In this document: piece after piece, positions 2,595-30,030 of the stretch | Layout: each line of letters opens with the position of its first letter | Numbering within the stretch: position 1 is the first letter of the stretch | Assembly: GCF_032027425.1 (NCBI RefSeq) | Contig: NZ_JAVSJA010000001.1 | Location: 1,364,001-1,428,000 of the forward strand | Direction of reading: 5' to 3' | Length of the DNA: 64,000 bases | Origin: Microcystis wesenbergii NRERC-220 | GTDB taxonomy: Bacteria; Cyanobacteriota; Cyanobacteriia; Cyanobacteriales; Microcystaceae | Translations under genes and position numbers: made by a program | The notes under the pieces: generated by a model | The model's input: the letters and a program-made list of their open reading frames with translations, nothing else | What the model was told of the DNA's origin: nothing | Databases searched by the model: none

Positions 2595-5165
2595 TTAAGT
2601 CCCTAAAATCAAGCGCTGACGATGGCAATTAAGCAGCGAAATTTCCTGTCCAGAGACCCGTTCTAACATCTCGACGATATGATCGGGCTGTAGTAAAGTG
2701 CCATCATTGCGACAACTGCCCACATAGCACAAAACGGCTTGTTTGTCAACAGTTTTTAACTCTAATTCATATAATTGTTCTCGCAGATTAATCGTGACTT
2801 TTTTGCCGGATTTGGTGGTTTTTTCCCGTTCCATCACCGTTGCTTGCTTAATCGCCTCGATCCAATTTTGCCATTGTTGGCAGTCAATTCCCTCACTGTT
2901 AAAAGTGAGCAAATACGCAGCTTTTTCTAACAAACGGGTGGCAGCGGGGGCATTTAAGGGAATTTCTTCCACCTGATAAACCGGCAAATCTGCGGGTAAT
3001 TGCCCGCTTAACTGCCGTTTAAAAGTCTCTAAATCGATTACTTTTGTCAATTCAAAATCGACAATCTCACCGCTACTGGTTGCTCCCAAGGATAAAGCAT
3101 TAGCGATCGAAATGCGCGGACCGGGGTGAAATCCACCGGTAAAGGAAATAGGAATAGCAGCCCGACGGACGACGCGATCAAATAAACGCACCAGATCCAA
3201 GTGGCTAACTAGGGCCATTTCGCCAATTTTGCCAAACCAAACCCGAATTCTTTGGGCGCGTTCTTGATTGGGTTGAAAATGTCCGGCAAAAGCGGGAATC
3301 GGAGGCGCTTCAATGACGATATTATGGCCAAAATCGACGCTACAAACGCCACAATGGGAACAACCCTCAAAAGAACAATCGGGAACCGTTGCCGCGTCTA
3401 GGGCGCGTTTTAAGTCCTCCTCTAGCCATTTTTTATCGATACCGGTATCCAGATGATCCCAGGGCAAAGGACGCTCTAAAACATCTTTGTCTGCATCGGC
3501 AAAAATATTCCATTCTCCCTGTTCTATCTGACGATATTTCCAGGTTAAACCGGATTCTTCGATCGCCTGTGACCATGCTTGATAGGCTTTTTCTGTATTA
3601 TCCCACCAAGCATCCATCCCGGCTCCCAATTGCCAAGCGCGCAGCACCACTTTCCCTAAACTTCTGTCACCGCGACCGATAAAATCTTCCATAGCCGAGA
3701 TGCGGACATCGGTATAATTGACTTTTACCCCTCTCATGCCTTGGAATTCCTGTCTTAATAACTCCTGTTTGCGGATAAATTCGGCCGTGGAGACGGAATG
3801 CCACTGGAAGGGGGTATGGGGTTTAGGGGTAAAATTCGAGATAGTTAGGGTAAAATCGAGGGGTTTCCGCTTCGGTAAACGACATTCCCGACGCAACCAG
3901 CGCACCGTTTCCACGATACCGATGACATCCACATCGGTTTCCCCTGGCAAACCGATCATAAAATAGAGTTTGACCTTATCCCAACCCTGTTCGACGGCAG
4001 TTTTTATGCCTCTGAGTAATTCTTCGTTGGTTAACCCTTTGTTAATTACATCGCGCATTCGTTGGGTTCCCGCTTCCGGTGCAAAGGTTAAACCCGATTG
4101 ACGATTGCCCCCAATTATGTTAGCAATATTTTCGTCAAAGCGATCGACTCTTTGACTGGGTAAGGATAGAGATATATTCTCATTCTGGAGACGGTTTTTA
4201 ATCTCCATACCCACGGCAGGTAAAGCTAGATAATCGGAGCAACTGAGAGATAATAGAGAAAATTCGTTATATCCCGTCGCTCGCATTCCTTTTTCAATCG
4301 ATTCGATTACTGCTTCCGGTTGCACATCCCGCGCAGGACGGGTTAACATCCCCGGTTGACAAAAACGACATCCCCTAGTGCAACCGCGACGAATTTCCAC
4401 CACTAGGCGATCGTGAACCGTTTCCACGAAGGGAACTAAACCGATAGAATAGGCTGGGATAGGAGTAGCTACCCGGCGTAAAATTCTTTTCGGTACATCG
4501 TCACGATTGGGGATAACTGCACCGATTGGGGTGACATCGTAGAAACGCGGGACATATACCCCCGGAATTTGGGCTAAATCTAGTAATAGTTCTTCTTTGC
4601 TTAGATTAGCTAGTTTACCTTCTTCTAAAATTAAACCGATTTCTGGCAATAATTCTTCGCCATCACCGAGGGCGATAAAATCAAAAAAGTCGGCGTAGGG
4701 TTCGGGGTTAGAGGTGGCAGTTTGTCCCCCGGCAAAAATTAGCGGATAGTTACCCGCATCTCTTTCTCTCCAAGTCAAGGGAATTGTCGCTAGGTCGAGC
4801 ATTTCTAAAATATTGGTGGCTCCTAGCTCATAACTGAGACTAAAACCCAGAATATCAAAATCGGTGAGGTAACGACGGGATTCTAGGGCAAATAGGGGGG
4901 TTTTTGTCTGTTTGAGTTTTTGGGCTAAATCCGGTGCGGGTAGATAAGTGCGATCGCAGAGTTGGCGGGGTTGAGCATTGAGGATATTGTAGAGGATAAT
5001 ATGGCCGAGGTTAGATGCCCCCACTTCGTACACTTCTGGATAGGTTAACACCCAACGAACCACAGCACTTGCCCATTCTTTATGTTTAGCACCTAACTCG
5101 TTGCCCAAATAACGCGCTGGTCGAAAAATGTCGGGGGTGAGCAGTTGGTCTAAAGCAATAGTCAC
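2595..5165 (-). CDS. B12-binding radical SAM protein fused to a DUF2344 domain
   Basis: An 856-residue protein of the TIGR03960 type. Residues about 40-190 form the B12-binding-like part, including LGFSLSYELGATNIL and FAGGQTATSNPEP. The radical SAM cluster motif is C262-x3-C266-x2-C269 (RRGCTRGCRFCQPG), followed by the usual SAM-binding segments such as KLYFMIGLPGET. A Cys-rich segment (CSFEGCSHCGVC) precedes a C-terminal DUF2344 domain (KIGEMALVSHLDLVRLFDR, FTGGFHPGPRI). In many bacteria the two parts are separate neighbouring genes; here they are one chain. The substrate is not established; a role in RNA modification is sometimes suggested but is inference. The gene is monocistronic, with no close same-strand neighbour. 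Confidence 0.9.
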   Translation of the reverse strand: MTIALDQLLTPDIFRPARYLGNELGAKHKEWASAVVRWVLTYPEVYEVGASNLGHIILYNILNAQPRQLCDRTYLPAPDLAQKLKQTKTPLFALESRRYLTDFDILGFSLSYELGATNILEMLDLATIPLTWRERDAGNYPLIFAGGQTATSNPEPYADFFDFIALGDGEELLPEIGLILEEGKLANLSKEELLLDLAQIPGVYVPRFYDVTPIGAVIPNRDDVPKRILRRVATPIPAYSIGLVPFVETVHDRLVVEIRRGCTRGCRFCQPGMLTRPARDVQPEAVIESIEKGMRATGYNEFSLLSLSCSDYLALPAVGMEIKNRLQNENISLSLPSQRVDRFDENIANIIGGNRQSGLTFAPEAGTQRMRDVINKGLTNEELLRGIKTAVEQGWDKVKLYFMIGLPGETDVDVIGIVETVRWLRRECRLPKRKPLDFTLTISNFTPKPHTPFQWHSVSTAEFIRKQELLRQEFQGMRGVKVNYTDVRISAMEDFIGRGDRSLGKVVLRAWQLGAGMDAWWDNTEKAYQAWSQAIEESGLTWKYRQIEQGEWNIFADADKDVLERPLPWDHLDTGIDKKWLEEDLKRALDAATVPDCSFEGCSHCGVCSVDFGHNIVIEAPPIPAFAGHFQPNQERAQRIRVWFGKIGEMALVSHLDLVRLFDRVVRRAAIPISFTGGFHPGPRISIANALSLGATSSGEIVDFELTKVIDLETFKRQLSGQLPADLPVYQVEEIPLNAPAATRLLEKAAYLLTFNSEGIDCQQWQNWIEAIKQATVMEREKTTKSGKKVTINLREQLYELELKTVDKQAVLCYVGSCRNDGTLLQPDHIVEMLERVSGQEISLLNCHRQRLILGT

Positions 5166-20346: not shown

Positions 20347-20607
20347 ATGACTAAATTAATTCAAGAAACTTTCGAGCAAATTGCACCGCTTTCTGAAGAA
20401 CAACAAGATAGCCTGGCAACCTATCTAAAAAAACACCTAGCTGAATTTTTAGAAGAAGCGGAAAAAGAACGACGAATTGCAGAAGGGACTTATACCATAA
20501 GTGATTTTAACGAAAAAACTCAACAAGTCATTCAGAATATTGAAGAGCAAAAAAACTTAACTGTTGTCAAAGATCAAGTTGAACTGTATCAGCAGCTAGG
20601 AATTTAA
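20347..20607 (+). CDS. Antitoxin-like protein paired with a broken YafQ toxin
   Basis: An 86-residue acidic, helical protein (LSEEQQDSLATYLKKHLAEF followed by LEEAEKERRIAEG). Proteins of this type are found upstream of RelE/YafQ toxins in cyanobacteria and serve as antitoxins. It overlaps the downstream toxin remnant by one base (TAATG), the usual coupled layout. No DNA-binding fold is obvious. The antitoxin frame is intact although the toxin is not. Confidence 0.6.
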   Translation: MTKLIQETFEQIAPLSEEQQDSLATYLKKHLAEFLEEAEKERRIAEGTYTISDFNEKTQQVIQNIEEQKNLTVVKDQVELYQQLGI

Positions 20608-20909
20608 TGTTATTACCCATTTTTGAAAATCGCTTTAAAAAAGATATTAAACGACTGCAAAAACGGTGAAAAGATATGACCAAACTGAAAAATGTCATTG
20701 ATAAATTACTTCAAAAGCAAGAACTAGAACCTAAATACAAAGATCACGCTTTGATGGGAAACTGGAATGGATATAGGGATTGTCACCTAGAACCAGACTG
20801 GCTTTTAATTTATAAAATCACAGACACCCATCTTTTTTTAGTGCGCTCTGGTTCCCATATTGAAGGCGGTTCGCGGAGGGGAAGCGTGGCAATCTTGCTT
20901 AACCGATAG
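20607..20909 (+). pseudogene. YafQ/RelE-type toxin pseudogene
   Basis: The frame starting at the ATG at 20607 reads MLLPIFENRFKKDIKRLQKR, then a TGA stop at 20667-20669, then KDMTKLKNVIDKLL... to the end. YafQ proteins normally read through here with a Gly (KRGKDM), so a single GGA-to-TGA change explains the break. The conserved GNWNGYRDCHLEPDWLLIYK and LFLVRSGSH are present. The normal short C-terminus after GSH is replaced by IEGGSRRGSVAILLNR, encoded by a GC-rich repeat-like stretch (about 20864-20893). An ATG at 20676 could yield a 77-residue product lacking the N-terminus. Confidence 0.75.
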
Positions 20910-22981: not shown

Positions 22982-23519
22982 TCAAAAGTATCGATACAAA
23001 ACCCTCGGATTTTTTAGTTCTACCGAACCTACCATGCAAGGAATTGCTGAAAGCCTTTCCATTAATCGAGCATACCAAAAGTTGCTCAAATGATCGATCA
23101 AAACTACTTTATCCTCGCCAGAGATTACAATATTTTCTGGTTTAATATCAAGAGGATAAATTCCTTGCTCGTGAACTGTTTCTAATGCGTCCACCAATTG
23201 ACTGATTAATTTCTCGATTCTTTGCGGAGGTAAACGAGAGCTGCCCGGCAGCAAAGAAGCAAAGGTTTTATCCCAGCGCCTATTCTTGGGGATAAAATTC
23301 CTTAATCGCTATAGCAGTGGCTAATTGACGATGACAGGCCCGATAGGTGATGCCAAAACTGCCCCGACCGAGGGGATAATCGATAGCATCAGTTCCATCT
23401 CTCAGTAAGGTTCCCTTTGCTAAGAAGTCTTTTAGTAGTGCTGGCAGGTAAACACCACAACGGAGACATTTATCCATTGATGGCTCAATTCCCTGAAAAC
23501 GACAGTTTAAGCATGGCAT
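22982..23519 (-). pseudogene. Serine/threonine protein kinase pseudogene
   Basis: Two fragments of one kinase. The N-terminal piece (23280-23519) has a Cys4 zinc-ribbon-like start (CLNCRFQG...KCLRCGVYLP) and the glycine loop YPLGRGSFGITY with the VAIK-type lysine (AIAIKEFY). The second piece (22982-23254) has the catalytic loop degraded to YPLDIKPENI and the DFG replaced by DHL. The helix C to hinge region between them is missing and a stop separates them. The C-lobe ends early. Not expected to be active. Confidence 0.8.
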
Positions 23520-23720: not shown

Positions 23721-24551
23721 ATGACCGAAAATAGAGGCCCGATTCCCGTAGTTGTCAACGGTGCAGCCGGCAAAATGGGACGGGAAGTCATTAAAGCCGT
23801 TGCTCGTGCCGACGATATGATCTTAGTGGGTGCAGTGGATCGAAATCCAGCTTTTCGAGGTCAGGATGTGGGAGAAGTGGCTGGTTGTGAACCCCTAGAA
23901 GTGCCGATTCTCGACGATTTGCAGAGTGTTTTAGTCCTGGCAACTCAGGAAAAAGTGCAGGGGGTGATGGTGGATTTTACCCATCCCGACGGTGTTTATG
24001 ACAATACCCGCAGTGCGATCGCCTATGGAGTGCGTCCCGTGGTGGGAACTACGGGATTATCGGCGGCACAACTGCAAGATTTAGCCGAATTTGCCGAAAA
24101 AGCCAGCACCGGCTGTTTAGTTATCCCCAATTTTTCCATTGGCATGGTTTTACTACAACAGGCTGCTATGCAAGCATCTCGCTACTTTGATCATGTAGAA
24201 ATTATCGAACTGCATCACAATCAAAAAGCAGACGCACCCAGTGGCACAGCGATTAAAACCGCCGAATTACTGGCCGAATTAGGTAAAACCTTTAATCCTG
24301 CCCAAGTTTCCGAAAAAGAAACCATCCCCGGCGCTAGAGGCGGTTTAACTGCTGAGAACATCCGTATTCATAGCGTGCGTCTACCCGGTTTAATTGCCCA
24401 CCAGGAAGTCATTTTCGGTTCCCCCGGGGAAATCTATACCCTTCGTCATGATACCAGCGATCGCTCCTGTTATATGCCGGGGGTTCTCCTCTCTATCCGC
24501 AAAGTTACTCAGCTGCAATCCCTCGTTTACGGTTTAGAAAAAATCCTCTAA
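23721..24551 (+). CDS. dapB: 4-hydroxy-tetrahydrodipicolinate reductase
   Basis: A 276-residue NAD(P)H-dependent enzyme of lysine/diaminopimelate biosynthesis. It has the N-terminal nucleotide-binding motif [36 protein letters not shown], the catalytic [20 protein letters not shown] and the C-terminal [15 protein letters not shown]. Full length. A GGAG-type site precedes the ATG (AAGGAGAATAATTAACC). Its stop codon at 24549-24551 directly abuts nuclease-derived remnant sequence, leaving no spacer or terminator. Confidence 0.95.
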
Positions 24552-24702
24552 ATCGAGATATTTTAGAGAAAGGAGAGGAAAAGGGCAAAGAAGAGAAATC
24601 TCGACAAATTGCCCTAAAAATGCTATCTGCTGGCTTTCCTATCCCCAAGCCCTAGATTTAGATATTGAACAAGTACAACAAGTCATTGAGGGACAAAATT
24701 GA
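24552..24702 (+). pseudogene. Chimeric remnant of Rpn nuclease tails
   Basis: Immediately after the dapB stop the sequence reads ILEKGEEKGKEEKSRQIALK then MLSAGFPIP, a C-terminal tail as in the nuclease ORFs at 27488 and 28269. It then breaks and jumps into the other tail type, QALDLDIEQVQQVIEGQN, ending at the TGA at 24700-24702. It records a deletion or recombination that fused two unlike tails. No start codon is apparent. Confidence 0.75.
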
Positions 24703-24762
24703 GGGAAAACGGACAGTATTTTCTATCGTCTCTTTGAGACTTTTCCTGAAAGTTTCTTTGAT

Positions 24763-25512
24763 TTGCTCAATCTTCCCCCAGAAACCGTCAATCATTATCA
24801 ATTTTCCTCCCTAGAAGTTAAACAACTCGCTTTTCGTTTAGATGGGGTCTTTCTTCCCGATAACCTGAATGACCCGATTTACTTTGTTGAGGTACAATTT
24901 CAAAAAGATGAACGGTTTTACTCACGCTTTTTTAGTGAAATATTTCTCTATTTTCATCAAAGCGAGTTAAGCCAGAATTGGCAAGGGGTGATCATTTATC
25001 CTCATCGGGAAATTGAAAACAGTCCCAAATCTCGTTATCAAGAATTCTTTGAGTCAGGCCGAGTTAACTGTTATTATCTGAATCAGTTAGATGAGGGGGA
25101 TTCTCTGGGGGTAAAAGTGTTACAATTAATTGTGGAATCGGAACCAAACACCTTAGCCCAAGGAAAAGAACTGATTCAACAGGTTAGACAACAATTCCAG
25201 GAGTCTTTAAAAAGACAAGACATTCTCGAATTAATTGAGACAATTCTCATTTATAAATTGCCCAAATTAAACCGTAAGGAGATAGAAAAAATGTTTAGTT
25301 TAAGTGATTTAAGAGAAACTAAAGTCTATCAGGAAGCTTTAGAGGAAGGCAGAGAGGAAGGTAGAGAGGAAGGCAGAGAGGAAGGAGAATTATCCGCTAA
25401 ATTAAACTCTATTCCCCGTTTATCAGCCTTAGGATTAACTATAGAACAAATTGCCCAAGCCCTAGATTTAGATATTGAACAAGTACAACAAGTCATTGAG
25501 GTACAAAATTGA
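24763..25512 (+). CDS. Rpn/PD-(D/E)XK nuclease (DUF2887-like), family A copy 1
   Basis: 249 residues from a TTG. The nuclease core is visible: QFSSLEVKQLAFRLDGVFLP, with D27, followed by IYFVEVQFQKDERFYSRFF with the E43-x-Q45 motif. Next come ELIETILIYKLPKLNRKEIE, an internal Met (residue 177), an acidic REEGREEGREEGE hinge and a 40-residue tail beginning LSAKLNSIPRLSALGL. Homologous frame continues upstream to 24703 (KTDSIFYRLFETFPESFFDL), where family members normally start with Met-Lys-Thr-Asp, but the codon here is GGG. Full-length initiation is therefore doubtful. Members of this family are annotated as recombination-promoting nucleases or putative transposases. Confidence 0.75.
   Translation: MLNLPPETVNHYQFSSLEVKQLAFRLDGVFLPDNLNDPIYFVEVQFQKDERFYSRFFSEIFLYFHQSELSQNWQGVIIYPHREIENSPKSRYQEFFESGRVNCYYLNQLDEGDSLGVKVLQLIVESEPNTLAQGKELIQQVRQQFQESLKRQDILELIETILIYKLPKLNRKEIEKMFSLSDLRETKVYQEALEEGREEGREEGREEGELSAKLNSIPRLSALGLTIEQIAQALDLDIEQVQQVIEVQN
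25276..25512 (+). CDS. Nested short ORF within family A copy 1 (RpnS-like), with its ribosome-binding site
   Basis: An in-frame ATG at 25291 is preceded by AAGGAG (25276-25281) with a 9-nt spacer, a better initiation signal than that of the full-length ORF. The product would be 73 residues: MFSLSDLRETKVYQEALEEG, the acidic hinge and the tail. In E. coli, Rpn genes are reported to make a short C-terminal protein from such an internal start that inhibits the nuclease. The caveat is that the AAGGAG also encodes conserved residues (K-E), so protein constraint may explain it. Confidence 0.45.
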   Translation, partial: KEIEKMFSLSDLRETKVYQEALEEGREEGREEGREEGELSAKLNSIPRLSALGLTIEQIAQALDLDIEQVQQVIEVQN

Positions 25513-25572
25513 GGGAAAACGGACAGTATTTTCTATCGTCTCTTTGAGACTTTTCCTGAAAGTTTCTTTGAT

Positions 25573-26322
25573 TTGCTCAATCTTCCCCCAGAAACCGTCA
25601 ATCATTATCAATTTTCCTCCCTAGAAGTTAAACAACTCGCTTTTCGTTTAGATGGGGTCTTTCTTCCCGATAACCTGAATGACCCGATTTACTTTGTTGA
25701 GGTACAATTTCAAAAAGATGAACGGTTTTACTCACGCTTTTTTAGTGAAATATTTCTCTATTTTCATCAAAGCGAGTTAAGCCAGAATTGGCAAGGGGTG
25801 ATCATTTATCCTCATCGGGAAATTGAAAACAGTCCCAAATCTCGTTATCAAGAATTCTTTGAGTCAGGCCGAGTTAACTGTTATTATCTGAATCAGTTAG
25901 ATGAGGGGGATTCTCTGGGGGTAAAAGTGTTACAATTAATTGTGGAATCGGAACCAAACACCTTAGCCCAAGGAAAAGAACTGATTCAACAGGTTAGACA
26001 ACAATTCCAGGAGTCTTTAAAAAGACAAGACATTCTCGAATTAATTGAGACAATTCTCATTTATAAATTGCCCAAATTAAACCGTAAGGAGATAGAAAAA
26101 ATGTTTAGTTTAAGTGATTTAAGAGAAACTAAAGTCTATCAGGAAGCTTTAGAGGAAGGCAGAGAGGAAGGTAGAGAGGAAGGCAGAGAGGAAGGAGAAT
26201 TATCCGCTAAATTAAACTCTATTCCCCGTTTATCAGCCTTAGGATTAACTATAGAACAAATTGCCCAAGCCCTAGATTTAGATATTGAACAAGTACAACA
26301 AGTCATTGAGGTACAAAATTGA
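25573..26322 (+). CDS. Rpn nuclease, family A copy 2 (identical to copy 1)
   Basis: The predicted protein is identical to copy 1 over all 249 residues, and the nucleotide unit repeats with a period of 810 bp with no difference noticed. The same GGG replaces the expected start codon at 25513. The nested start is at 26101, preceded by AAGGAG at 26086-26091. Such identity implies very recent duplication or gene conversion (or an assembly duplication). Confidence 0.75.
   Translation: MLNLPPETVNHYQFSSLEVKQLAFRLDGVFLPDNLNDPIYFVEVQFQKDERFYSRFFSEIFLYFHQSELSQNWQGVIIYPHREIENSPKSRYQEFFESGRVNCYYLNQLDEGDSLGVKVLQLIVESEPNTLAQGKELIQQVRQQFQESLKRQDILELIETILIYKLPKLNRKEIEKMFSLSDLRETKVYQEALEEGREEGREEGREEGELSAKLNSIPRLSALGLTIEQIAQALDLDIEQVQQVIEVQN
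26086..26322 (+). CDS. Nested short ORF within family A copy 2
   Basis: Same as the nested ORF of copy 1: ATG at 26101, AAGGAG 9 nt upstream, 73-residue product identical in sequence. Confidence 0.4.
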   Translation, partial: KEIEKMFSLSDLRETKVYQEALEEGREEGREEGREEGELSAKLNSIPRLSALGLTIEQIAQALDLDIEQVQQVIEVQN

Positions 26323-26382
26323 GGGAAAACGGACAGTATTTTCTATCGTCTCTTTGAGACTTTTCCTGAAAGTTTCTTTGAT

Positions 26383-27156
26383 TTGCTCAATCTTCCCCCA
26401 GAAACCGTCAATCATTATCAATTTTCCTCCCTAGAAGTTAAACAACTCGCTTTTCGTTTAGATGGGGTTTTTCTTCCCGATAACCTGAATGATCCGATTT
26501 ACTTTGTTGAGGTACAATTCCAAAAAGATGAACGGTTTTACTCGCGCTTTTTTAGTGAAATATTTCTCTATTTTCATCAGAGTGAGAGTAATAACAATTG
26601 GCAAGGGGTGATCATTTATCCTCATCGGGAAATTGAAAACAGTCCCAAATCTCATTATCAAGAATTCTTTGAGTCAGGCCGAGTTAACTGTTATTATCTG
26701 AATCAGTTAGATGAGGGGGATTCTCTGGGGGTAAAAGTGTTACAATTAATTGTGGAATCGGAACCAAACACCTTAGCCCAAGGAAAAGAACTGATTCAAC
26801 AGGTTAGACAACAATTCCAGGAGTCTTTAAAAAGACAAGACATTCTCGAATTAATTGAGACAATTCTCATTTATAAATTGCCCAAATTAAACCGTAAGGA
26901 GATAGAAAAAATGTTTAGTTTAAGTGATTTAAGAGAAACTAAGGTCTATCAAGAAGCTTTGGAGGAAGGCAGAGAAGAAGGAGAATTATCCGCTAAAAAA
27001 AGCCTAATTTTGCGTCAGCTAAACTTAAAACTAGGTTCTATTCCTTTAAAGTTAGAACAAAAAATTAAACAGTTAAATCCTAATCAATTGGATAATTTAG
27101 CCCTTGCTTTATTGAATTTTTCGGATTGGGAAGATTTGCACCAATGGTTAAATTAA
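26383..27156 (+). CDS. Rpn nuclease, family A copy 3, with DUF4351-like tail
   Basis: 257 residues. It shares the nuclease core (D27, E43-x-Q45) with copies 1 and 2. It differs at several sites in the first third (for example HQSESNNNW instead of HQSELSQNW, and SHYQ instead of SRYQ) and is again identical over the following region up to the hinge. After the hinge the tail is entirely different: KKSLILRQLNLKLGSIPLKL then EQKIKQLNPNQLDNLALALL and NFSDWEDLHQWL, a DUF4351-type end common in cyanobacterial Rpn proteins. The patchwork suggests gene conversion. The start problem (GGG at 26323) is the same. An alternative is that all copies are decaying pseudogenes. Confidence 0.75.
   Translation: MLNLPPETVNHYQFSSLEVKQLAFRLDGVFLPDNLNDPIYFVEVQFQKDERFYSRFFSEIFLYFHQSESNNNWQGVIIYPHREIENSPKSHYQEFFESGRVNCYYLNQLDEGDSLGVKVLQLIVESEPNTLAQGKELIQQVRQQFQESLKRQDILELIETILIYKLPKLNRKEIEKMFSLSDLRETKVYQEALEEGREEGELSAKKSLILRQLNLKLGSIPLKLEQKIKQLNPNQLDNLALALLNFSDWEDLHQWLN
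26896..27156 (+). CDS. Nested short ORF within family A copy 3
   Basis: ATG at 26911, with AAGGAG at 26896-26901. The 81-residue product carries the DUF4351-type tail instead of the LSAKLN tail. Confidence 0.4.
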   Translation, partial: KEIEKMFSLSDLRETKVYQEALEEGREEGELSAKKSLILRQLNLKLGSIPLKLEQKIKQLNPNQLDNLALALLNFSDWEDLHQWLN

Positions 27157-27288
27157 AGAAAAAAGCCTTAGATTCAACAATTTAAGCAACAATTCAGGAA
27201 TACCAGACAACAGGGAGAACTTTGAGAATTAATAGAGACGATTCTCATTTACAAATTACCGAAAATGAATGGTAAGGAGATTGAAAAA
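27157..27288 (+). pseudogene. Decayed family A nuclease 5' to a free-standing tail
   Basis: The DNA still aligns with the family A segment upstream of the internal start (AGATTCAACAATTTAAGCAA, ATTAATAGAGACGATTCTCA) but is frameshifted and carries stops. The nuclease core is gone. Only about 110 bp of former coding sequence remain before the intact tail ORF at 27289. Confidence 0.7.
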
Positions 27289-27495
27289 ATGTTTAGTTTA
27301 AGTGATTTGAGGGAAACTAAAGTCTATCAAGAAGCTTTAGAGGAAGGTAAAGAGGAGGGTAAAGAAGAAAAAGCTCGACAAATCGCCCTAAAAATGCTAT
27401 CTGCTGGTTTTTCTGTCCCAGAAATAGCCCGATTTACCGATTTATCCCCCGACGCGATCGAGCAATTACAAAGACGAAACACTCACGATGTTTGA
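27289..27495 (+). CDS. Free-standing Rpn tail ORF (68 aa)
   Basis: ATG preceded by AAGGAG with a 9-nt spacer, the same signal as the nested starts (an upstream in-frame ATG at 27265 would add eight residues). The product is MFSLSDLRETKVYQEALEEG, a KEEG hinge and the tail EKARQIALKMLSAGFSVPEI then ARFTDLSPDAIEQLQRRN. The nuclease part upstream is destroyed while this ORF stays open. Its last 8 bases (ATGTTTGA) overlap the start of the next nuclease gene, so the two are translationally coupled. It could act as an antitoxin-like partner of the nuclease downstream (inference). Confidence 0.55.
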   Translation: MFSLSDLRETKVYQEALEEGKEEGKEEKARQIALKMLSAGFSVPEIARFTDLSPDAIEQLQRRNTHDV

Positions 27496-28276
27496 TAATA
27501 TTTGTAAATTTATCGCCGAAAACTTCTCCGATGATCTAGCCACTTGGTTATTGGGTTCTCCCCTCTCCTTAACCGTCCTCGACCCGACGGAATTACAATT
27601 AGACCCCATTCGTGCCGATTCTCTGATTTTTTTGCAGTCAGAGCAACTAATTCTCCATACCGAATTTCAAACCGACCCCAACTCCAAAATTCCTTTCCGA
27701 ATGCTCGATTATCGCATTCGCGTCTATCGTCGTCATCCCCAAAAACAAATGCGTCAAGTGGTAATTTATCTGCGACGCAGCGACTCTCCCCTAGTACAAG
27801 AAAATACTTTCCGTCTGGGGGAAACCTTTCATTCCTTCCAAGTCATCCGTCTTTGGGAAGAAAATACACCACAATTTTTCCATCATCCCGGTTTATTACC
27901 CTTTGCCGTCCTCAGCAATACCGATGACCCCGAACAGGTGTTAAGTCAGGTGTCCCGTTCTTTAGAAACTATCTCTGAAAAACAGGTGCAAAGCAATCTC
28001 GCTGCCGCCACCAGTATTCTCGCTGGGTTAGTATTAAATCGAGAGACGATTAAAAAAATCCTTCGGAGTGACATTATGAGAGAATCCGTCATCTATCAAG
28101 ATATTTTAGAGGAAGGCGAGGAAAAGGGACTACAAAAAGGTAAAGAAGAAAAAGCTCGACAAATCGCCCTAAAAATGCTATCTGCTGGTTTTTCTGTCCC
28201 AGAAATAGCCCGATTTACCGATTTATCCCCCGACGCGATCGAGCAATTACAAAGACGAAACACTCACGATGTTTGA
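27488..28276 (+). CDS. Rpn/PD-(D/E)XK nuclease, family B copy 1
   Basis: 262 residues with a normal ATG. The core reads MFDNICKFIAENFSDDLATW, then IRADSLIFLQSEQLILHTEF with D44 and the E59-x-Q61 motif, then IPFRMLDYRIRVYRRH and QMRQVVIYLRR. These are hallmarks of cyanobacterial Rpn nucleases. An internal Met at residue 197 (MRESVIYQDILEEGEEKG) precedes the acidic hinge and the EKARQIALKMLSAGF tail. The start overlaps the previous tail ORF by 8 bp. The stop likewise overlaps the start of copy 2 by 8 bp (ATGTTTGA at 28269-28276), so the chain is set for coupled translation. Unlike family A, this copy has an intact start. Confidence 0.85.
   Translation: MFDNICKFIAENFSDDLATWLLGSPLSLTVLDPTELQLDPIRADSLIFLQSEQLILHTEFQTDPNSKIPFRMLDYRIRVYRRHPQKQMRQVVIYLRRSDSPLVQENTFRLGETFHSFQVIRLWEENTPQFFHHPGLLPFAVLSNTDDPEQVLSQVSRSLETISEKQVQSNLAAATSILAGLVLNRETIKKILRSDIMRESVIYQDILEEGEEKGLQKGKEEKARQIALKMLSAGFSVPEIARFTDLSPDAIEQLQRRNTHDV
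28065..28276 (+). CDS. Nested short ORF within family B copy 1, with its ribosome-binding site
   Basis: In-frame ATG at 28076 with GGAG at 28065-28068 and a 7-nt spacer. The 66-residue product is MRESVIYQDILEEGEEKGLQ plus the EKARQ tail. Here the GGAG is formed from Arg-Ser codons (CGG AGT) that need not contain it. Confidence 0.45.
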
Positions 28277-29072
28277 TAATATTTGTAAATTTATCGCCGA
28301 AAACTTCTCCGATGATCTAGCCACTTGGTTATTGGGTTCTCCCCTCTCCTTAACCGTACTCGACCCGACAGAATTACAATTAGACCCCATTCGTGCCGAT
28401 TCTCTGATTTTTTTGCAGTCAGAGCAACTAATTCTCCATACCGAATTTCAAACCGACCCCAACTCCAAAATTCCTTTCCGAATGCTCGATTATCGCATTC
28501 GCGTCTATCGTCGTCATCCCCAAAAACAAATGCGTCAAGTGGTAATTTATCTGCGACGCAGTGATTCCCCCCTAGTACAAGAAAATACTTTCCGTCTGGG
28601 GGAAACCTTTCATTCCTTCCAAGTTATCCGTCTTTGGGAAGAAAATACACCACAATTTTTTCATCATCCCGGTTTATTACCCTTTGCCGTCCTCAGCAAT
28701 ACCGATGACCCCGAACAGGTGTTAAGTCAGGTGTCCCGTTCTTTAGAAACTATCTCCCAAAAACAGGTGCAAAGCAATCTCGCTGCCGCTACCAGTATTC
28801 TCGCCGGGTTAGTATTAAATCGAGAGACGATCAAAAAAATCCTTCGGAGTGACATTATGAGAGAATCCGTTATCTATCAAGATATTTTAGAGGAAGGCGA
28901 GGAAAAGGGACTACAAAAAGGACGACAAGAAGGATTGCAAGAAGGCAAAGAGGAAAAAGCTCGACAAATTGCTCTAAAAATGCTATCTGCTGGTTTTTCT
29001 ATCTCAGAAATCGCTCGATTTACCGATTTGTCCCCTGCAACTATCGAGGAATTACAATCGAGAGACGACTAA
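28269..29072 (+). CDS. Rpn nuclease, family B copy 2
   Basis: 267 residues, nearly identical to copy 1 through residue 200, with a handful of mostly silent differences and ISQKQ for ISEKQ. It then has a longer hinge (QKGRQEGLQEGKEEKARQ) and a slightly different tail end (ISEIARFTDLSPATIEELQS). The catalytic D44, E59 and Q61 are kept. The repeat unit with copy 1 is 781 bp. Probably co-transcribed with the upstream array. Confidence 0.85.
   Translation: MFDNICKFIAENFSDDLATWLLGSPLSLTVLDPTELQLDPIRADSLIFLQSEQLILHTEFQTDPNSKIPFRMLDYRIRVYRRHPQKQMRQVVIYLRRSDSPLVQENTFRLGETFHSFQVIRLWEENTPQFFHHPGLLPFAVLSNTDDPEQVLSQVSRSLETISQKQVQSNLAAATSILAGLVLNRETIKKILRSDIMRESVIYQDILEEGEEKGLQKGRQEGLQEGKEEKARQIALKMLSAGFSISEIARFTDLSPATIEELQSRDD
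28846..29072 (+). CDS. Nested short ORF within family B copy 2
   Basis: In-frame ATG at 28857, GGAG at 28846-28849, 7-nt spacer; 71-residue product with the longer Gln/Glu-rich hinge. Confidence 0.4.
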
Positions 29073-29094
29073 AAAAATCCTTCGGAGTGACATC

Positions 29095-29235
29095 ATGAGA
29101 GAATCCGTCATCTATCAAGCTATTTTAGAGGAAGGAGAATTATCCGCTAAATTAAACTCTATTCCCCGTTTATCGGTCTTAGGATTAAGTGTAGAACAAA
29201 TTGCTCAAGCTTTAGACTTAGAGATTGGGCAATGA
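29095..29235 (+). CDS. Free-standing Rpn tail ORF (46 aa), hybrid of families B and A
   Basis: Starts like the family B nested ORF (MRESVIYQAILEEG, with GGAG 7 nt before the ATG) and ends with the family A tail (ELSAKLNSIPRLSVLGLSVE then QIAQALDLEIGQ). The upstream sequence copies the family B segment TCGAGAGACGA...CCTTCGGAGTGACAT but has no nuclease. It lies 22 bp after copy 2. As with 27289-27495, the short product and its ribosome-binding site survive where the nuclease is absent. Confidence 0.55.
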   Translation: MRESVIYQAILEEGELSAKLNSIPRLSVLGLSVEQIAQALDLEIGQ

Positions 29236-29415: not shown

Positions 29416-30030
29416 TTAAAGCAATTGAAATAAAACCGAGAGATTATTAGCTGGCATAGGAATTACTTCTAACAATTGTAAACCTCGATCGCTGGCTTCT
29501 TGCACCACATCTTCTAAATTCCTAACTCCCCAACTGGGGTTTTGAGAACGGAGAGAAAAATCAAAGCTTTCATTACTAGGAGAAGTATGTTTTCCCTGTC
29601 GTTTATAGGGACCATAAAGATAGAGGATTCCCCCTGGATTAAGAATTCGATTTGCTCCTGCCATTAAAGCTAAACAAGCTGACCAAGGAGCAATATGAAT
29701 CATGTTAATATTAACAATGGCATTAATGACGATATTTTCCCTCTCTACCGCCCAAACTGACTGATGAACATCGATAAATAGGGGGCGATCAAGATTAGAA
29801 CTAGGACAATAATCGCACCAACTGCGAATACTATCTAGAGCCAGAGGGTTACAATCGGAGGGAATCCAACGACAAGGAGCAAGACGAGGGGCAAAAAAAA
29901 CAGCGTGTTCACCCGTGCCGCTGGATATTTCTAGGATATTCCCAGTCTTCGGTAAAAATTGGCTGAGAACTTCTAAAATCGGCTGACGATTGCGTTCTGT
30001 TGCCGGAGCATATTGACGTAAATCAGACAT
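29416..30030 (-). CDS. DUF938-family SAM-dependent methyltransferase
   Basis: A 204-residue protein starting MSDLRQYAPATERNRQPILE, characteristic of the DUF938 family. The SAM-binding motif I is ILEISSGTGEHAVFFA; NINMIHIAPWSACLALM and GGILYLYGPYK follow. The substrate is unknown. Full length, with a TGATTACTGATTACTGATAA repeat just beyond its 3' end. It is a single gene between the Rpn array and a repeat-rich spacer. Confidence 0.85.
   Translation of the reverse strand: MSDLRQYAPATERNRQPILEVLSQFLPKTGNILEISSGTGEHAVFFAPRLAPCRWIPSDCNPLALDSIRSWCDYCPSSNLDRPLFIDVHQSVWAVERENIVINAIVNINMIHIAPWSACLALMAGANRILNPGGILYLYGPYKRQGKHTSPSNESFDFSLRSQNPSWGVRNLEDVVQEASDRGLQLLEVIPMPANNLSVLFQLL

Follow-up and report, generated by a model that had tools for sequence, protein, structure and literature searches.

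Positions 24552-29235 of a 64,000-nucleotide (nt) stretch of the Microcystis wesenbergii NRERC-220 genome (assembly GCF_032027425.1, contig NZ_JAVSJA010000001.1, positions 1,364,001 to 1,428,000 of the forward strand; hereafter the window) hold a tandem array of Rpn-type genes, all on the + strand, in which three frames of family A are followed by a free tail, then by two genes of family B and a second free tail. The array is, with good probability, a set of tandem Rpn toxin/intragenic-antitoxin genes. In the proposed mechanism, the long protein, RpnL, would be a PD-(D/E)XK nuclease ending in a helical tail, and a strong ribosome site inside the gene, directly ahead of the tail, would yield the tail alone, RpnS, in excess. 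RpnS would pair with the tail of RpnL and keep the nuclease silent until a signal, probably phage infection, frees it. Codon choice shows that, across cyanobacteria, purifying selection maintains the internal Shine-Dalgarno (SD) sequence and the start codon of both families, and all three family A copies of this strain carry a non-start codon at the toxin start position and an intact tail start. We infer that this strain produces RpnS and that RpnS neutralises the nuclease, with phage as the trigger and the array of this strain biased toward antitoxin.

The prior case for a built-in antitoxin in Rpn genes came, according to the accessible part of the main account, from experiments on Escherichia coli genes and one Clostridioides difficile gene (PMC10327210). 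Selection on synonymous codons across cyanobacteria suggests that the internal product matters in the wild, and the codon-choice approach offers a simple and general way to find other genes-within-genes. The strain-specific state, in which toxin starts are lost and brakes kept, and a third family described below are parts worth following.

Codon choice at the internal start

A preliminary description, made from the letters of the window, had claimed an in-frame internal ATG with an SD-like site in all five nuclease open reading frames (ORFs), and direct reading bears this out. The family A ATGs at 25291, 26101 and 26911 each have AAGGAG 9 nt upstream and the family B ATGs at 28076 and 28857 each have GGAG 7 nt upstream, all in the frame of the nuclease ORF. 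Two further sites had been missed, at ATG 27289 (AAGGAG, 9 nt) and ATG 29095 (GGAG, 7 nt), and both belong to the free tails, which carry the internal site and no nuclease. The five array copies amount to only two independent families.

Homologues were gathered across cyanobacteria, giving 186 distinct full-length frames of family A and 100 sequences of family B, of which 185 and 99 were left once sequences with N were dropped. The internal Met is ATG in 181/185 family A sequences; the four exceptions read ATC at the Met column, are proteins of the third family (family C) picked up via their tails, and were dropped. Family B has 96 ATG and 3 GTG among its 99 sequences, GTG being itself a start codon, and the three GTG rows were left out of the upstream-context count. 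An SD match of at least 4 precedes the internal start in 114/116 distinct upstream contexts of family A and 69/73 of family B. The control counts are 28/200 and 27/264 at other Mets of the same genes, and 73/344 and 58/219 at sampled Glu positions, with no excess over their own null in either control. Synonymous resampling with the families' codon usage (1000 draws) was applied to identity-clustered representatives. With 60% identity clusters, the SD is present in 31/31 of family A (null mean 9.2, maximum 17) and 22/25 of family B (null mean 5.8, maximum 12); with 50% clusters, the counts are 15/15 (null mean 4.4, maximum 11) and 8/11 (null mean 3.1, maximum 7).

The same preference is visible codon by codon. 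Position -5 of family A varies between Lys, Arg, Gln and Glu, yet its codon mostly ends in the G needed by the SD: among representatives at most 80% identical, Lys is AAG in 15/15, Arg is CGG or AGG in 7/7, Gln is CAG in 19/21 and Glu is GAG in 30/36, against backgrounds of 0.22-0.28, and GAG makes up just 10/71 at a control Glu (-2). Where Glu -5 is instead GAA (6/36 at 80%), GAG follows as the next codon, with Val as residue -3 in 6/6, which yields GAGGT. Family B uses AGG or CGG for Arg -4 in 50/53 cases (background 0.27) and AGY for Ser -3 in 25/26 (background 0.36). An unbiased codon-choice scan, which inflates serine columns because AGY and TCN lie two steps apart, ranks the SD codons 1 and 4 of 269 well-filled columns in family A, with the toxin start codon at rank 2, and 1 and 2 of 264 columns in family B.

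The preliminary description had named as refuting evidence homologues that encode the same residues with codons lacking GGAG at neutral frequency; this comparison was run, and such a pattern was seen in neither family. Its caution that the family A evidence is the weaker does not stand, since family A passes the codon-choice test and is by that measure as telling as family B. The one-gene toxin/antitoxin design that it proposed gains support from codon choice at the SD in homologues.

Toxin starts and start-less copies

Toxin starts were compared after rows without a canonical start codon were dropped (family A from 156 to 153, family B from 90 to 80). The toxin start has an SD in only 31/153 family A and 16/80 family B sequences, and 72/153 family A starts are GTG, whereas the internal start has an SD in 151/153 and 78/80. 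By SD, the internal site is the stronger of the two in 152/153 and 78/80. The A lineage of the window is an exception, in that GAGG(T) precedes the toxin start position as well. Each A frame directly follows the stop of the preceding tail in the same reading frame (24700-24703, 25510-25513 and 26320-26323), and in the genus an in-frame tail stop abuts the A-lineage toxin start in 21/21 distinct contexts that have a start codon; translation of the toxin may thus be coupled to the point where the tail before it ends.

The five nucleases had been described as full-length, which fails for the three family A ORFs, as they lack a normal start: the canonical toxin start position is GGG in A1, A2 and A3 (3/3). 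In a search of 12 Microcystis genomes, the window's own included, the same pattern occurs at 28 sites in 8 of the 12, with a start codon in 25/25 close copies of the seven other genomes, one of which is a same-species genome with an intact A toxin start. The match to DUF2887 begins at codon 3 of the frames. The TTGs at 24763, 25573 and 26383 are codon 21 and come first among several in-frame TTG/GTG codons, and the next in-frame ATG in A1-A3 is the internal start itself. These TTGs were considered as normal starts and rejected, the product losing the first two predicted helices together with D4, P15 and F19, all three invariant in a 35-sequence alignment. With GGG at the start position and the next ATG internal, A1-A3 can make the tail and probably not the normal toxin. 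The A nuclease frames are still open, so the loss of the start would be recent or tolerated.

Free and hybrid tails

Both free tails of the array are hybrid, the one at 27289 joining an A hinge to a B tail and the one at 29095 a B hinge to an A tail. The peptide of the latter recurs in another genome of the genus (locus L176), where 149/150 nt are the same from the ATG. All of the 91 orphan tails found (defined by fewer than 150 codons of open frame upstream, and not a census, 20 loci having been pre-chosen as fragments or tail-bearing regions) have ATG or GTG within two codons of the expected place, and 82/91 keep the SD. A tail of at least 35 residues is present in 73/91, a count in which 10/91 run past the end of their locus and are scored as short; 11/388 hinge hits were classed as neither full nor orphan. 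Among tails of assignable type, hybrids make up 16/34 free tails vs 2/31 full genes, for which the Fisher value of 2.6e-4 is too small because the rows are related. Repeats of 12 nt are present, and of the distinct peptides that fit the patterns of four tail groups, 54/54 have a linker length in the single modulo-4 class of their group. In two genomes of the genus (L336, L344), free A tails have the GAG codon of the SD as TAG, which closes the upstream frame before the internal ATG.

Family membership

The match to TIGR01784/COG5464 extends over most of the protein in A2 (127.4 bits), A3 (82.8 bits), B1 (114.5 bits) and B2 (115.6 bits), against a cut-off of 52.1. Family A belongs to DUF2887 (PF11103; E 1.8e-77), and family B matches TIGR01784 and has no nuclease-type Pfam match. 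The PD-(D/E)XK fold with its conserved acidic residues, by which the Rpn family is recognised, is found, and the array nucleases would be predicted to cleave DNA. The family B tail is homologous to the small protein of RpnA (7TH0, E 0.0019; positions 251-286 of 292 of the RpnA model, E 2e-4). The link of the family A tail to RpnA is only indirect, through TIGR01784 coverage to position 273 and a model in which the tail folds into a long helix and two short ones.

The family A sequence matched no Rpn entry in the PDB, 7TH0 included, and Foldseek with the family A model returned nothing below E 0.001; a single-sequence structure prediction for family B had a pLDDT (a per-residue confidence measure) of 41, too low to use. 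N-terminal profile comparison of A with B gave P 0.041 and a probability of 1.3%, and lined up the D and E-x-Q motifs of the two families. PADLOC gave no result for families A and B and a weak match of family C to one small model. The B2 tail had no match among phage records, and B1 and A2 had no relative among viral contigs. A literature search found no paper naming DUF2887 and, by titles and abstracts and PMC10327210 aside, none on Rpn antitoxins.

Family C

A third family lies elsewhere in the genome (C1:4063919-4067113), where three complete copies stand in tandem alongside one partial match. It has no Pfam domain above cut-off, and its N-terminal part has no TIGR01784 match and no significant alignment, as a profile, with family A or B; its tail alone matches TIGR01784, at 51.2 bits vs the cut-off of 52.1. 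Matches to a family C protein, some via the tail only, occur in 91/292 cyanobacterial genomes. In the 79 frames collected, the Met is aligned in 76, three sequences without it being dropped, and is ATG in 76/76. The internal SD match is present in 74/76 (null mean 27.5, maximum 41) vs 43/192 at other Mets, and in 22/23 at 60% clustering (null mean 7.9, maximum 14); its SD codons take the top two places among 310 columns in the codon scan. The nearest upstream start has an SD in 4/67. Family C is a new lead: its tail is of the kind seen in A and B, its internal start is under strong selection, and this common, unnamed cyanobacterial family is a probable toxin with a built-in inhibitor.

It is possible, and is put forward here tentatively, that the internal start and helical tail form a portable 'built-in brake' cassette, carried by very distant or unrelated toxin domains (families A, B and C) and also free-living. 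By the same proposal, the array of this strain would have shifted to an antitoxin store, with three start-less toxins and two free hybrid tails perhaps able to neutralise toxins of either family.

Comparison with known systems

By sequence, the system is of the known Rpn toxin/intragenic-antitoxin kind, as described in the accessible part of PMC10327210, to which the comparisons in this section refer. In E. coli, an internal start yields a short tail that blocks the long nuclease, varies in its four-residue repeats and is in some cases encoded by a gene of its own. Five E. coli genes and one C. difficile gene give rise to the short protein, which inhibits the long one in the E. coli cases tested; purified RpnA is a two-plus-two complex of the long and the short protein, and one plasmid Rpn system protects against phage. 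Tandem duplication appears to be the origin of Rpn arrays (Zhong et al. 2023, PMC10327210). The genes described here resemble E. coli RpnA-RpnE and the plasmid-borne RpnP2 (RpnL/RpnS) in their PD-(D/E)XK nuclease, in an internal start before a helical tail, and in their varying four-residue repeats, tandem arrays and free-standing tail genes. They differ in having two cyanobacterial N-terminal families within one array, start-less toxins and hinge/tail hybrids between families. A tail alone beside a full gene is also known from E. coli ypaA, a second RpnES copy downstream of rpnE, and from DUF4351 genes, and the tail of A3 is DUF4351; unlike these, the two free tails of the window each combine a hinge and a tail from different families. 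A phylum-wide codon-choice test does not appear in that part of the text. What is added here is phylum-wide evidence of selection, along with array copies that lack the toxin start, free tails of hybrid make-up and family C.

A cyanobacterial gene with a functional internal start and a second product is also known from the Synechocystis type I-D Cas10d/Cas11d system, in which Cas11d is a working subunit and not an inhibitor (cited in PMC10327210). Two family B homologues on plasmids of Synechocystis PCC 6803 (L350 on pSYSM, 4001-4783; L351 on pSYSX, 4001-4771), which differ in linker length, have AAGGAG before an internal ATG at Met197 and a long start without SD. As they share the internal site, the design could be tested directly in a model organism.

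Alternative explanations

Several findings weigh against an intragenic antitoxin in this array. Within the window alone, an internal SD-ATG in a single gene is hardly beyond chance: an SD match of at least 4 stands at 20/144 internal in-frame ATGs elsewhere in the window (32 other ORFs of at least 200 amino acids (aa)), and 13/32 of these ORFs contain at least one. The synonymous null is one without phylogeny, and a control Glu at +2 of family B shows a mild excess too at 50% identity (6/11, p 0.03). Production of the long protein from a normal start, by which membership is judged, is wanting in A1-A3; B1 and B2 have ATG and so belong by sequence with RpnL/RpnS, A1-A3 being only start-less relatives of intact members in other genomes. 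The single-gene figures would suit an artefact in which Lys-Glu or Arg-Ser beside Met yields an SD-like site through amino-acid constraint or codon bias, but such an origin is scarcely credible, as resampling reached at most 17/31 vs 31 observed in family A and 12/25 vs 22 in family B, and the other-Met and sampled-Glu positions of the same genes behave as their null predicts. Chance or amino-acid constraint as the source of the SD sites is rejected by the resampling, the controls and the codon scan, and across cyanobacterial homologues the internal SD-ATG is, on these comparisons, far beyond chance.

The codon-choice evidence shows selected initiation and not the role of the product, which leaves room for a short protein that is a working partner, a helical subunit required to assemble the nuclease, like the Cas11d made from within cas10d in Synechocystis. 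The two-plus-two complex of RpnA and the Cas10d/Cas11d precedent, both from the accessible text of PMC10327210, would fit such a role; the inhibition of the long protein by the short one in E. coli where tested (PMC10327210, same text) and the homology of the tail to the small protein of RpnA argue against it, and we regard it as quite improbable. Decay is harder to set aside, though still on the unlikely side: the array of this strain would be mostly recombination debris, its start-less A copies and orphan tails decaying after unequal crossing-over between repeats. The GGG in 3/3 A copies here vs a start codon in 25/25 copies of seven other genomes, the loss of two helices and three invariant residues from a TTG-started product, the position of the orphan tails at repeat junctions and the many truncated or stop-bearing copies in the genus, among the matches listed, all point to decay. 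On the other side stand the open nuclease frames, the mere 4 aa that separate A1 and A3 for 14 nt changes, the retention of the SD in 82/91 orphans and the near identity of the 29095 orphan (149/150 nt) in another genome of the genus. Debris is in any case compatible with tandem toxin/intragenic-antitoxin genes, as the family may be functional while the copies of this strain decay.

Layout of the array and other features of the window

The array is preceded by a gene ending at 24551 that we take, by eye, to be dapB-like, and is followed by a presumed methyltransferase-like gene, also named by eye (29416-30030, - strand). A 5' remnant (24552-24702) runs from a family-B-type tail fragment into a family-A-type tail end (..QVIEGQN, stop 24700-24702), with a sequence match at 24539-24649. 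A1 (24703-25512) is a DUF2887/Rpn nuclease frame with GGG at the canonical start position, assigned to its family via the identical copy A2; its internal SD, AAGGAG, is read directly at 25276-25281, and its internal ATG opens an RpnS-like tail ORF with four-residue REEG repeats (25291-25512). A2 (25513-26322) is identical to A1 across 810 nt, with the same GGG, an SD at 26086-26091 and a tail ORF at 26101-26322. A3 (26323-27156), a nuclease with the same GGG, has its SD at 26896-26901 and a DUF4351 tail ORF at 26911-27156; before the tail, A1 and A3 differ at 4/196 residues. The first free-standing tail (27289-27495, 68 aa) fuses the family A hinge and SD (27274-27279) to the family B tail, and its stop overlaps the ATG of B1.

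B1 (27488-28276) is an Rpn nuclease (TIGR01784) with D64 and E79-x-Q81 present; its own ATG start has no SD (match 3, dG (free energy) -0.2), and its internal start, with GGAG at 28065-28068, opens a tail ORF at 28076-28276. B2 (28269-29072), also an Rpn nuclease, has an ATG overlapping the B1 stop, and its internal start, with GGAG at 28846-28849, opens a tail ORF (28857-29072) with RQEGLQEG, two four-residue units, more than B1. The second free-standing tail (29095-29235, 46 aa) fuses the family B hinge and SD (29084-29087) to the family A tail. B1 and B2 differ at 1/196 residues before the tail and at 12/588 nt in their nuclease parts. The tails of the array diverge far more than the nuclease parts, that of A3 being DUF4351 and that of B2 having other changes besides its two added units.

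Upstream of the array, a likely type II toxin-antitoxin pair lies at 20347-20909, where a small ORF, its Phd/YefM match weak and below cut-off, is followed downstream by a YafQ-family toxin (E 3.4e-25). At 22982-23519 on the - strand, a short ORF with a piece of a protein kinase (Pkinase 94-169 of 263) and a neighbouring short ORF without a Pfam match probably represent a broken Ser/Thr kinase gene.

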